A stretch of DNA of 64,000 nucleotides from Clusia tigrina (taxonomy: Eukaryota; Arthropoda; Insecta; Diptera; Clusiidae): contig OV050030.1 in the NCBI GenBank assembly GCA_920105625.2, forward strand, positions 88,211,152 to 88,275,151, given 5' to 3'. The notes beneath the pieces are model-generated. The model was not told the DNA's origin and did no database searches. It was given only the letters and a program-made list of their open reading frames with translations. The number at the start of each line of letters is the position of its first letter. Position 1 is the first letter of the stretch. Of the stretch, positions 10,859-35,764 are shown piece after piece. The translations under genes and the position numbers were made by a program.

Positions 10859-10888
10859 ACAAATCAAAATCAAAATGTGAACGAAATT
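10859..10888 (+). repeat. LTR scrap at array 5' end
   Basis: 30 bp identical to the internal part of LTR4 (35495-35524), joined directly to late protease sequence (matching 17565 onward). About 2 kb, comprising the rest of the LTR, leader, gag and most of protease, is missing. An AAAT shared at the joint suggests a microhomology deletion. Confidence 0.8.
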
Positions 10889-13885
10889 AATAAAAATACG
10901 ATAAACTTTGAAGTACACACAGAGGCACCAAAAGAATTCGAGCTGCCAAATAACGCAAGAGTTAGGTCAATGGAAGAAGCTACAATTTTATAATAGGTAT
11001 AGATATCTTGAACTTTTTGAACGCGAACATAAATATTAAAGAAAATATAGTAATACTAAATCAGAGAGTAAGTAATTTTCTAAATAACCCATACGATTTG
11101 AATCAAATGTGTACATTAGAAACAACTGAAAGTAAGACAAACGGAATTCAGTTAAATCATCTAAATGCGGAAGAATATAATAAATTTGTAAGAGTCTTAA
11201 ATCGTATTAAAAATCTATTATTTAATGAAGGGGATAAACTAACTAATACGACAGAAATACAACATGAAATCAAAACTACAACAAACGAACAAATTAACTC
11301 GAAATTATATAGATATCCACCCCAACACGAAGAAGAAGTTAGAAGACAAGTTAAGGAAATGACAGAGCAAGGAATAATAAGGAAAAGCAAATCGAAATAT
11401 TCTAGCCCCTTGATCGTTATACCAAAGAAAATGGACAACTCGGGAAAAAGAAAATACAGATTAGTTATCGATTATAGAAAGTTAAATGAAATTACAATAG
11501 ACGACAAATAACATTTACCAAATATAGATTCAATTCTGGACAAATTGGGAAGAGCTCAATATTTGACCACCCTAGACTTAACAAAAGGATACCATCAAAT
11601 TTTGGTTAAGGAAGAAGATAGGGAAAAGACAGAGTTTGTTATACCGCACGGACTATACGAATTTGTAAGGATGCCATTCGGACTGAAGAATGCACCTGCA
11701 ACTTTCCAGCGATTAATGAACGAAATACTGCGTGACTATATTAATAAAACTTGTGTTGTCTACTTAGATGACATACTTATATTTAGTACCTCATTAGACG
11801 AGCATATAAGGCGATTAGTGAAATTTGTAACGTATTAGAAACGAAAAGTTTAAAAATTCAGATAGATAAATGTAATTTTTTAAAGAAGGAAACAGAATTC
11901 CTCGGACACGTTCTCACCGAAGAAGGCATGAAGCCGAACCCAAATAAAATCAAAATTATAAAAAATTTAGAATTACGAAGACAGAAAAACAAATTGAAAG
12001 CTTTTTAGGAGTCACTGGGTACTACCGGAAGTTTATAAAAGATTATCCCAAAGTGGCACAGCCAATAACTAAATATTTAAAAAAGGCATAAAAATTAATA
12101 CAAAAAACCCTACATACATTGAGTCATTTGATAAATTAAAGAATCTAATTAATTCATATCCCATATAACGATTTCCGAACTTTGAAAGAAGTTTACATAG
12201 ACAACGGATGCATCGAATTATGCACTGGCAGCGGTATTAGCCCAATAATGACATCCAGTCTGCTTCGCATCGAGCACGTTAAATAACCACGAAAGAAATT
12301 ATTCGGCAACAGATAATGAATTCTTGGCTATTATATGGAGTGTCAACTACTTTAGGCCATATATATACGGAACGAAATTAAAAATTCTTACCGACCACCA
12401 ACCCATAAAATACTTACATTCCGAATACAGGGGTAAAGATATGTCACCAAGACATCAAATATGCCTACTAAAATTAGGAGAATATGATTGCGAAATAGAA
12501 TATTTGATAGGTAAAGAAAATAAGGTAACGGATTTCCTGAGCAGATTAGAAATAGGAAAAGAAAAAAAACTCAGAGGATGGTCCTCTTCCTTACGAAAAA
12601 ATGGTTTAAATAATAACGTTAATATTTCAAACTCAAATATCATAGACAATATTGAAGATGATATAACAATGGCTACGGTACATTCAACAGAAGAAAACTT
12701 AAACGATCATTTTGTCATAAAGGAAGAAATTATCAACAAACACAAAACTCAAATTATAATAAGAAACGACAAGACAGAAGAATTTAAAATAGTACACGGA
12801 AAAAGGATAATATTTATTGCCGAATACAATTTTGAGACAATGGGAGATATATTTAGGAGATACATAAGAAAGGGAATGATAGGTATTTATTCCGAATTAT
12901 CCGATCCTAAGTATAATGTGGTAAAAAAAAACTTATTCAAATGTTTTCCAATGACAAAGACGTTATATTTATAAAATGTATTATCAGAGCGCAGGACATT
13001 GAAACCGAAGTGGAAGCAATTAAGCAAATATCATTTTATCACGTAAGAGAAAGTATGCATTCGGGCATACAAGAAACATATAACAAAATCAAGAACATAA
13101 TATAATATCCAAAACTGATGGAATTAATCCAAATAGTAATCAACCAATGCGATTTATTCAAGGAAGTAAAATATGATAGGAATCCGATAAAGCCAAAATT
13201 CCAATATTATGAAACACCTTCAGATAAAAATCAGATTATACATGTAGACACATATGTTATAAAAAATTTTCATTTTCTGACAATAATAGATAAATTTTCT
13301 AAATTTGGAACAGCTTATCCTTTGAATGATAGAAATCACGTTGCATTAATTGAGCAATTAGAAGACCATTTCGCTTAAATAGGAAAACCAAACAAAATTA
13401 TAGCCGATAATGAATTTAAGACAATACGAATAAAAGAATTTTTAGACCAAGAAACAATTGAATTACATTTAACAAAACCCAATAGTCATACTGGCAACGC
13501 AGATGTAGAAAGAATGCATAATACCATTGCAGAAAAATTTAGAATATTGTACAAATCTGAAAAGAATTTATCAGTAAAACAAACTATCCAAAAACCAATC
13601 CGAAATTATAATAGCAGATACCATTCTACAATTAAAAACACTCCCTTAGATGTGAAAAATGGCAAAATCGTCTTAGTGAAAATTATCAAAATATAAAAGA
13701 AAATAAGAAAAGGTACATAGATAAACTAAACAAGAAGAGGGAACACTTCGAAGAAATTAGAAAAGAAGGATATATTAGGATCTATAAAGTGGTTAGGCAT
13801 AAGGAGAAACCAAAATACAGAAAAGCAAAGTTAAAAAATATACACCCAACTAATATTAAAAGACCACAAAAAATTTTCAGAAATG
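10886..13885 (+). pseudogene. pol: Unit A pol (protease end, RT, RNase H, integrase)
   Basis: Polyprotein for reverse transcription and integration, broken. Protease tail 10886-10990. RT 11008-11838 carries LVIDYRKLNE, LTTLDLTKGYHQI and the active site VVYLDDILIFS; one TAA (11509) interrupts it in an otherwise continuous frame. A frameshift follows RT at about 11836. The RNase H start (TTDASNYALAAVLAQ, about 12200) and rest (12324-12974, with LTDHQPIKYLHSEY and VTDFLSRL) lie in other frames. Integrase 12975-13696: an HHCC-type finger whose first Cys pair is altered (CDLF), then D in IHVDTY, D in IIADNEF and E in DVERMHN. A TAA after DHFA (13376) splits it. An eight-A run at about 12565 sets the RNase H tail frame as in unit B. 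Confidence 0.85.
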
Positions 13886-15371
13886 GTGGATAATTCTGTT
13901 AGTGATAAACTGGATATCTCAGATTAACGGATACATTAATTTGACAGAGATACAGGACCAAACCGGATTCGTGGACTTTCAGGTAAGAAACCAGGAAATA
14001 GTTAAAGATACGGATATAGTAATACATATGATCAACATTGACAAAATTGAGAATATTATTAACGAAATGACGGACTATATAATATTAATGAAAATACAGA
14101 ATAAAGAAATAAATTACTGACACTAATACAAAAAAAAAAAAAAAAAAATAGACACAACCGTGGACTTGTAAACGCAATAGGTAGTATGTCAAAATGCTTA
14201 TTTGGAACGATGGACTACTTAGACAGACAAGACATACAAAATCACCTCTTACAAGCAGATACAAACATGAGTCAACAAATTCAAGTAAACGAATATTTTA
14301 ATATAGCATTAGAACAATTAAGAAATATTGTTAAAAGCGATAGAACAAATATCTAAAAAGTGATCAATTCTATAGATAAATTCAATGACGAAGAATATGA
14401 ACAAAACTTATATTTAGAGCAATTCACCAAAATTCAACTATTAAAAAATAAAATTGAGCGCATACAAGATAACGTAGTATCAGCAAAATATGGAATAATT
14501 CACCCTAACATTTTAACTAACAATGAAATATTAAAGTATAAACATAGATTATATCAAACTAAAATAAGTAAGTAAAGAAATTTTACAATAGGGCACGGCA
14601 ATCTTCAACAATATATACTTAATATTTGGCATCAAAATACCAAACACATTTTTATACGTAAATATTATTTACTTAATGCCGATACCTAATAAGGATAGAT
14701 GCAGAAATAGAAGAAATATTTAATTATGAAAATAAAATATATAAATTTTGAAAAAATAAACACTTAAGACAATTAAAAACTAGTATGCATTGTGTAATAA
14801 AAGCAAATTTTCAACTTACTAAAAAATACTGAATCGAAGCAATCTCAAAAGATGTAAAAATAGTTATTGTTAAAAATGCCATAAATTTGCCAATTAATCA
14901 AACATGTACGAATAATGAAACTATTTTAAACAGAAATTATTTGATTCAGTACAGTAATTGTTCAATAAAAAATTTAAGATTACTATTTTTCAAACAGTAT
15001 TGAAACTGTAGAAGAAAATATTATAAATGTAAAATACGAAGATATAAGAAATTTCACAAAAAAATAAAATAAATAAAATATATATATATATATATATATA
15101 TATATATATATATATATATATATATATATATATATATATATATATATATATATATATATATATATATATATATATCATTTGAAAAAATAATAGAAGATAA
15201 TAAATCAAATATTAAAAACATTTTCATGTTAAAATATCACAGTAAACTGTCATATGGGTGTAATGTGTTAATAATTATTCTGATAATCATTTTATGTTGT
15301 ATTTTTTTTTTCATTAAACAAAATTATATAAAAGTAAAATTAAATAGTAGAATTCGGGAAAATTCTAATCT
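13886..15371 (+). pseudogene. env: Unit A env with (TA)n tract
   Basis: Errantivirus envelope remnant. A hydrophobic start at 13902 reads for 72 residues, then a 31 bp deletion (compared with unit D) shifts the frame near 14100. The region after a 17-20 A run reads RGLVNAIGSMSKCLFG (about 14155), matching the cleavage and fusion-peptide block of Env. Stem-type helical sequence follows at 14360-14575. A 97 bp (TA)n tract at 15079-15175 interrupts the tail, and 15226-15411 encodes a hydrophobic membrane anchor (VLIIILIIILCCIFFFI). Not translatable as one protein. Confidence 0.75.
15079..15175. repeat. (TA)n tract in unit A env
   Basis: 97 bp of TA inside the env tail. The same site holds 46, 86 and 108 bp in units B, C and D. 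Confidence 0.95.
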
Positions 15372-35370: not shown

Positions 35371-35382
35371 AAAGGAAGGGGT

Positions 35383-35764
35383 AGTTACAGTAACACACCA
35401 ACATATATAAAAGCTCAAACAACACCGAACAGTATAGATAAAATTATATTAAATGTTATATTATATCCGGAATTTCACAATAAATTGAACAAAAGAAACA
35501 AATCAAAATCAAAATGTGAACGAAATTCCGAGAGTGGCAATATTGTGCAGCATAAAATGTATATAGATTAGTAAGAACTTTGGTAATACATAAAAATTAA
35601 GCAATTAAGCATAATATTTAAGCAAATTGGAACTGAGCAGGAAAATTGATTATTAAAATAAAGTCAGTTTGGTTTTATTCTTCTTGAGCGTCTCTTCGCT
35701 GCAAATAAACTTTGTCTTTAATTCTTTAAAAAAAAAACCCGTTTACGGCCACCGTATACAAAAT
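35383..35764 (+). repeat. LTR4, array 3' end
   Basis: 382 bp; more diverged from LTR1-3 than they are from each other (for example GAACGAAATTCCG, and TTTTATTCTTCTTGAGCG). It ends ACAAAAT and is followed by GCACGTGC instead of a primer site, so it is the true right boundary. It abuts a copia gag fragment. Confidence 0.85.

Follow-up and report, generated by a model that had tools for sequence, protein, structure and literature searches.

A head-to-tail errantivirus-like array with shared long terminal repeats in Clusia tigrina, and evidence for its stepwise growth by recombination after the death of the element

A retrovirus-like element normally stands alone between two long terminal repeats (LTRs), and the question raised by a locus of the fly Clusia tigrina is how four copies came to stand in a row with single LTRs between them. 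The window analysed here is a stretch of 64,000 nucleotides (contig OV050030.1, C1:88211152-88275151) from a genome assembly of 1.214 Gb in 666 contigs, and it contains an array of an errantivirus-like provirus. An initial annotation of the sequence had favoured amplification of the dead element by recombination and had proposed a retroelement-derived satellite in birth. Our analysis of the sequence suggests that the structure probably grew stepwise on the chromosome, by recombination between neighbouring copies, after the element had died; we hold this with less assurance for the very first step.

Self-comparison of the window and the LTR coordinates confirmed four internal regions in the same orientation with one LTR between each. 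The array occupies positions 10860-35763 and consists of about 3.7 head-to-tail units, all on the plus strand, in which successive internal regions are separated by a single LTR of about 380 bp (Table 1). By self-comparison, the units start at 10889, 17563, 24186 and 30847 (spacing 6674, 6622-6623 and 6661 bp) and the array ends at 35764. The three longest self-matches showed identities of 98.8, 99.2 and 99.0%, and the first and the last unit were 97.7% identical; chance is excluded as the origin of this four-unit pattern. The motif TGGCGCAGTCGG, which we take to be the errantivirus primer site, lies directly 3' of the first three LTRs, at 15764, 22387 and 29048. It was not found 3' of the fourth LTR (35383-35763), where other sequence begins, and the right end of the array is therefore the end of a 3' LTR. 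The outer ends differ: the right one is a complete LTR, and the left one is an LTR remnant of 29-30 nt beside a foreign LTR. The first copy is incomplete, lacking most of its 5' LTR and gag; this truncation and the adjoining foreign LTR had been missed. For comparison, the units were aligned in frames U1 to U4, which begin at the protease position where copy 1 starts (10889). U1 to U3 each comprise protease-reverse transcriptase (RT)-integrase-env-LTR-gag, U4 stops at the terminal LTR, and U1 takes in the gag of internal region 2.

Ten stretches, nine from the array and one from the left flank, were searched against Pfam. The pol order RT-RNase H-integrase was recovered with RVT_1 (2.5e-27), RT_RNaseH (8.9e-22) and rve (3e-7), of which the integrase core rve scored just under its cut-off (31.1 bits against 32.6), and one 83-aa piece of internal region 1 matched Baculo_F at 23.4 bits, below the cut-off of 24.1. 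For five array stretches (gag, protease and three other pieces) no Pfam family was found. A search with the gag protein (318 aa) gave 40 protein matches, and among those labelled with an organism the highest-ranking came from Musca domestica (60% identity over 90%); further named matches came from Anastrepha, Drosophila, Hermetia and Bactrocera and from one moth, Eumeta. From these matches the element appears to be errantivirus-like, with the layout LTR-gag-pol-env-LTR. It resembles insect errantiviruses in its RVT_1 and RNase H matches, in its gag match and, at scores slightly short of the thresholds, in those to the integrase core and Baculo_F, and differs from them in that RT and gag stops are found in every copy having those genes and integrase stops in three of the four copies. 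With stops in RT, integrase and gag, none of these copies is expected to move by itself. Two repeats lie within the units. A (TA)n run in the env region (15073-15180 and equivalents) differs in length among the units and is usable as a unit tag, and the gag tail carries a 63-bp tandem repeat (16862-17268 and equivalents in other units), which shifted alignment matches suggest is present in the relatives too.

The lesions of the copies can be read as time stamps. The stops on which the initial annotation had relied are real: an RT TAA (column 621) is present in all four units, and three gag-tail stops (columns 6212, 6233 and 6380) are present in all three gag copies. Other lesions mark only some of the units, namely an integrase TAA at column 2488 (U1 to U3), another at column 2560 (U2 and U3), a 1-base deletion at column 1674 (U3 and U4) and a gag TGA at column 6017 (U1 only). 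Both relatives compared lacked the RT and gag stops, and neither integrase stop was present in the single relative with sequence there; this check of lesions against relatives covered the stops. Stops at columns 948, 2084 and 2806 and from 6602 on also occur in the relatives where these are covered, and so were not counted as lesions of the locus. The integrase stops are nested (U2 and U3 within U1 to U3), but the deletion groups the units otherwise, which argues for more than one exchange.

The units belong to the same element, as had been proposed, but they are not equally alike, because both edges of the array diverge from the interior. The edges are 1.1-1.6% from the interior, and divergence within the interior is 0.1-0.2% overall, about tenfold lower; U2 and U3 differ at 10/6589 positions over the whole unit (printed blocks summed). 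Between U3 and U4, 0/2486 differences were found in columns 1-2487 and 47/2348 in columns 2488-4901 (Fisher 1.4e-15), and when the breakpoint was searched between columns 1 and 4542, 0/300 permutations were as good. U1 and U3 differ at 18/2486 positions on the left and at 3/3452 in the middle (Fisher 5.6e-5), with a searched change point after column 2270. Two-state sites with a base in all four units gave different groupings in the two parts. In columns 1-2487, 14 sites set apart U1 only, 4 set U1 and U2 against U3 and U4, and 2 set apart U2 only; in columns 2488-4901, 42 set apart U4 only, 3 joined U1 with U4 and 2 joined U2 with U4. The three-unit part added 5 sites for U1 only and 2 for U2 only, and no private substitution of U3 was present at the sites counted. 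Substitution-free stretches extend over 4098 bp at a one-unit offset (from column 5112 of U2 to column 2488 of U3) and over 2508 bp at a two-unit offset (U1 against U3). Diverged edges, an alike interior and conflicting site patterns together argue for a tandem that was growing and homogenising by unequal exchange, not for one integration followed by independent decay.

The direction of the changes was read with one or two relatives as outgroup for internal sites and with ten relatives for the LTRs. At the right edge (columns 2488-4542, n=32), the derived state was found in U1 to U3 at 11 sites, in U4 at 12, in U2 and U3 at 3 and in U2 and U4 at 1, and 5 sites were not polarisable. At the left edge (columns 1-960, n=13), 9 sites were derived in U1, 2 in U2 to U4 and 2 in U2. 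Columns 961-2487 (n=7) gave 2 sites derived in U1 and U2, 2 in U3 and U4, 1 in U1, 1 in U2 to U4 and 1 not polarisable. The interior LTRs differ from one another by 0-1, and they have about 9 derived states in common that are absent from the terminal LTR; 3 states are peculiar to the terminal LTR, 2 are ambiguous and 1 is shared by the terminal and one interior LTR. The polarity right of column 2488 and the LTR states thus suggest that the interior type of this part was one sequence for most of its history and was multiplied recently. The array seems to have passed through a long dimer-like phase, followed by growth.

When one LTR was compared with the genome, 40 of 71 candidates were scored and gave 62 matches. 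The four at 96-100% all lie in the array, and the remaining ones reached at most 91% over a part and 86% near full length; among these matches there was no sister of the lineage able to feed repeated insertions. Lesions confined to subsets of units, an edge divergence about tenfold that of the interior, conflicting sites and the lack of another copy of the lineage among the matches make recombination after death well supported as a reading of the sequence, and give the route and the timing favoured by the initial annotation firmer backing than it could offer.

The following history would account for these observations. A single errantivirus-like provirus on the chromosome would have gained the RT stop and the three gag-tail stops. 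Unequal homologous exchange between its two LTRs, on sister chromatids or homologues, may then have produced a dimer whose two units have the middle LTR in common. This dimer would have aged, leaving the edges at their present distance from the interior, and further unequal exchange and conversion between units would have given about four partly homogenised units. The foreign LTR and deletions would later have removed most of the left end. That an LTR-LTR exchange was the first step, that the RT stop preceded it, and the order of the events at the left end are what we infer.

The terminal LTR bears on the first step. Terminal and interior sequences differ at 33/2169 positions before column 4794 and at 12/128 after it, and 0/1000 permutations gave so good a change point (2/1000 when an adjacent triple was counted once). 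Taken as wholes, the terminal LTR differs from the interior at 15/380 positions and the internal part at 30/1917 (p 0.007; 0.02 with the triple counted once). A step of this kind is expected from an LTR-LTR crossover, which leaves a middle LTR derived on one side from the 5' LTR. The change point was nevertheless rejected as proof of a crossover after relatives had been added. In the first approximately 250 bp, all four LTRs carry 7 changes found in none of the LTRs of 22 relatives and form one clade with full local support. The last approximately 130 bp of the terminal LTR, in comparison with the relatives' LTRs, has no locus-specific change in common with the interior LTRs, and its distance to them, 9.2%, is like that to the rest of the family. 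Eight further LTR pairs of this family, six on one strand 4-19 kb apart and two in opposite orientation, are 0-3.5% apart overall and 0-5.5% in the last part, which differs more than the rest in four pairs and less in two, with two pairs identical throughout; this part of the LTR seems to change faster within the family. The step would mean either an insertion as old as the spread of the family or recombination of one LTR with another member.

Several points weigh against stepwise growth by recombination after death. The tail of the terminal LTR would fit an exchange with another family member as well as an LTR crossover in an old provirus, and the small distances in the eight other LTR pairs speak against an insertion of such age. 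Between U1 and U3 the change point is less well supported than between U3 and U4, 6/300 permutations being as good. Conversion following duplication could have carried a stop into all four units, where it is now present, and conversion after a one-step insertion of a multimer could mimic part of the pattern. The target duplication of the array itself is unreadable, the left end being gone, and the apparent restriction of LTRs at least 96% alike to this locus was judged from the 40 scored of the 71 candidates. The ratio of nonsynonymous to synonymous change (dN/dS) of U3 against two relatives was about 0.53 (47 and 22 changes; 17/8 and 26/10 in the relatives), with two integrase pieces contributing no codon covered by both relatives. 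It may mean that the branch of U3 was not wholly unconstrained.

Similar structures are present elsewhere in this genome. In a tandem survey, the 150 best-scoring of 63,291 RVT_1 candidates were examined for same-strand neighbours within 10 kb. Ten same-strand clusters contained 26 of the 150 matches (134 loci in all), with one opposite-strand neighbour pair, and random placement would give 0.1 same-strand pair. Nine clusters were fetched, a 9.2-kb pair at C1:156870863 being left out. Six were clean shared-LTR tandems (arrays A, B, C, E, F and I in Table 1), and clusters D, G and H were tandem but not cleanly bounded, D and G having indels and the fetched stretch of H falling short of both ends. 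Arrays A, B, C, E and F were 99.0-100% alike by aligned piece. The LTRs of the other arrays are clearly different, from 303 to 1397 bp, and arrays B, C and E may be one family, since their LTR ends are the same or similar. Arrays A, B, E, F and I, each taken as a whole, were called as flanked by a 4-bp duplication; array C was not. Arrays C, E and I lie inside TA runs, and the duplication matches of E and I are therefore weak. The survey favours intact RT and does not include the array of the window, and so yields no rate; the young arrays are too alike for the routes of formation to be separated there.

These arrays bring up another explanation, in which an already defective element in multimeric form (concatemeric cDNA or a circle) entered the chromosome in a single integration, as a dimer or something longer, and subsequent conversion made the divergence uneven. 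The high identity of the other arrays, their n units with n+1 LTRs and the 4-bp duplication in five of six could reflect such one-step formation, and both routes are left open in the discussion of a study of rice tandems (PMC11899658). A single event predicts equal divergence, however, and 0% and 2.0% were seen in neighbouring stretches of the same two units. The long substitution-free stretches at one- and two-unit offsets beside diverged edges fit copying of units better, and no defective sibling of the lineage was found elsewhere among the scored LTR candidates. We therefore regard a one-step origin of this array as unlikely. Equally doubtful in our estimate is that two or more closely related proviruses, inserted separately, were fused by exchange between their LTRs, or that an array end was replaced via another family member. 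The change point at column 4794 could indicate this, and so could the tail of the terminal LTR, which groups with the interior LTRs no more closely than with the rest of the family. The 7 changes and the clade formed by all four LTRs over their first part stand against it, as does the RT stop common to all four units, and no donor was found: of the 8 interior-derived states in the last part, none of ten relatives had over 2. The end-replacement form can hold together with stepwise growth, and hence the odds of the explanations do not sum to one.

Head-to-tail copies of a dead element would also follow from a segmental tandem duplication unrelated to LTRs, through slippage in replication or the reinsertion of a DNA circle. 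Random breakpoints should carry flanking sequence, whereas here an LTR and an internal region make up the unit and the array stops on its right at an LTR end, which makes this route very improbable, although it is inseparable from LTR exchange once a dimer exists. The array is known here from assembled sequence alone, and one element might have been expanded by mis-joined reads. Against such an artefact, variants, lesions and (TA)n lengths are not the same from unit to unit, the units differ in length, and the same form recurs in arrays with clearly different LTRs; it is hardly credible. Stepwise growth on the chromosome thus remains the explanation that we prefer.

The proposal of a satellite in birth, on the other hand, was not supported as stated. 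A satellite would be a long tandem of many copies; this array is a single locus of about 3.7 units, the matches listed included no LTR at least 96% alike outside it, and no expansion was found elsewhere. Shared-LTR tandems recur in other LTR families of the genome, and a tetramer alone is therefore no evidence of a nascent satellite.

The left boundary of the array is secondary in origin. Positions 10859-10888 match the terminal 3' LTR (35498-35527) at 100% and each interior LTR at 96.7%, with one mismatch. This LTR piece is joined straight to the protease at 10889, and thus the rest of the 5' LTR, the leader and the gag of copy 1 are gone. They were sought further upstream and no piece of the element matched window positions 1-10858, where the neighbour is the LTR of another family. 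This foreign LTR was found at 39 other places at 91-93% (among 40 scored of 364 candidates), and the four copies fetched all end within one base of the same place, with different sequence beyond. No target duplication flanks it at 10346-10859. Among the four fetched relatives, a clean 5-bp duplication (CCCAT) was present in one, a shifted 4-mer in one and none in two; the absence of a duplication at the foreign LTR appears to be weak evidence, since only one relative has a clean one.

Table 1. Features of the array in the window (window positions) and shared-LTR tandem arrays elsewhere in the genome (contig positions).
Feature	Position	Strand	Remarks
Foreign LTR	10346..10859	+	514 bp, TG...CA; other high-copy family; alone, adjoins array
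Remnant of original 5' LTR	10860..10888	+	from LTR comparison
Internal region 1	10889..15383	+	5'-truncated (protease end to env), without gag; RT TAA 11509, integrase stop 13376
LTR shared by internal regions 1 and 2	15384..15763	+	TGGCGCAGTCGG at 15764
Internal region 2	15764..22005	+	leader, gag (private TGA 16856), protease-RT-integrase-env; RT TAA 18183, integrase stop 20050
LTR shared by internal regions 2 and 3	22006..22386	+	
Internal region 3	22387..28667	+	RT TAA 24806; integrase stops 26672, 26744; 1-base deletion near 25858
LTR shared by internal regions 3 and 4	28668..29047	+	
Internal region 4	29048..35382	+	RT TAA 31467; without the two integrase stops; diverges from other copies from about 33333
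Terminal 3' LTR	35383..35763	+	14-15 differences/380-381 from interior LTRs, mostly in last approximately 130 bp; last base uncertain by one
Array A	C2:59767460-59793620 (59.77 Mb)		4 units, 5 LTRs
Array B	C1:55977159-56005756 (55.98 Mb)		4 units, 5 LTRs
Array C	C2:115533878-115555388 (115.53 Mb)		3 units, 4 LTRs
Array E	C4:50700787-50714226 (50.70 Mb)		2 units, 3 LTRs
Array F	C4:122509362-122522265 (122.51 Mb)		2 units, 3 LTRs
Array I	C1:329769389-329785075 (329.77 Mb)		2 units; 1397-bp repeat at both ends and in the middle

Other elements were noted in the window outside the array. A 290-aa open frame at 5273-6752, presumably resembling a mariner transposase, has beyond it an almost perfect palindrome, about 620 bp in length, with a long (TA)n run at its centre. 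Positions 7171-9611 hold the remains of what is apparently a non-LTR retrotransposon, with an RVT_1 match at 8784-9158 and, upstream of it, a frame that we take to be endonuclease-like. Two diverged copies (76-81% by piece) of another element lie at 40175-44110 and 57988-59865, and the minus strand at 41839-42670 is 58% like the RT of the array.

Used as time stamps, the lesions of this locus favour recombination in steps once the element was dead, at any rate for the increase from a few units to four, and six clean, mostly young arrays in the same genome make the early steps directly testable. Shared-LTR tandems might even be unusually frequent in this fly lineage, with multimers arising in a number of young LTR families that are not related to one another, perhaps routinely in the course of replication, and exchange keeping even dead arrays growing; this is a tentative suggestion, which we consider rather doubtful at present. 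If it is true, one genome holds a continuous series from the young dimer to the dead, homogenising tetramer.

Tandems of this kind are already known from other genomes. In rice and other plants (IDENTAM), internal regions alternating with single shared LTRs were described, with 28 clear cases in one rice genome, mostly of the gypsy superfamily (PMC11899658). Both exchange and multimer insertion are considered there; the authors favour a single insertion in one section and leave the mechanism, one insertion or later recombination, open in the discussion. The Clusia array is like those tandems in the alternation of internal regions and single shared LTRs at one site, and unlike them in that it is from an insect, is dead and has a remnant as its left end, and in that its lesions order the steps, an order which the rice loci did not give. 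In kangaroo centromeres, shared-LTR retroviral tandems for which LTR exchange was proposed are cited in the same study (PMC11899658); the likeness lies in the shared LTRs and the proposed LTR-exchange origin. For Drosophila, McGurk and Barbash (2018) are reported to have described tandem dimers, including those of LTR elements, with LTR exchange as one of three routes, and such tandems were proposed as raw material of satellites (as cited in PMC7214746 and PMC6795482). The cases mentioned in these citing papers are dimers, apart from a longer array formed by the DNA transposon hobo, whereas the present array comprises four units of an LTR element with readable steps. What is distinctive of the Clusia locus is this readable order of events.

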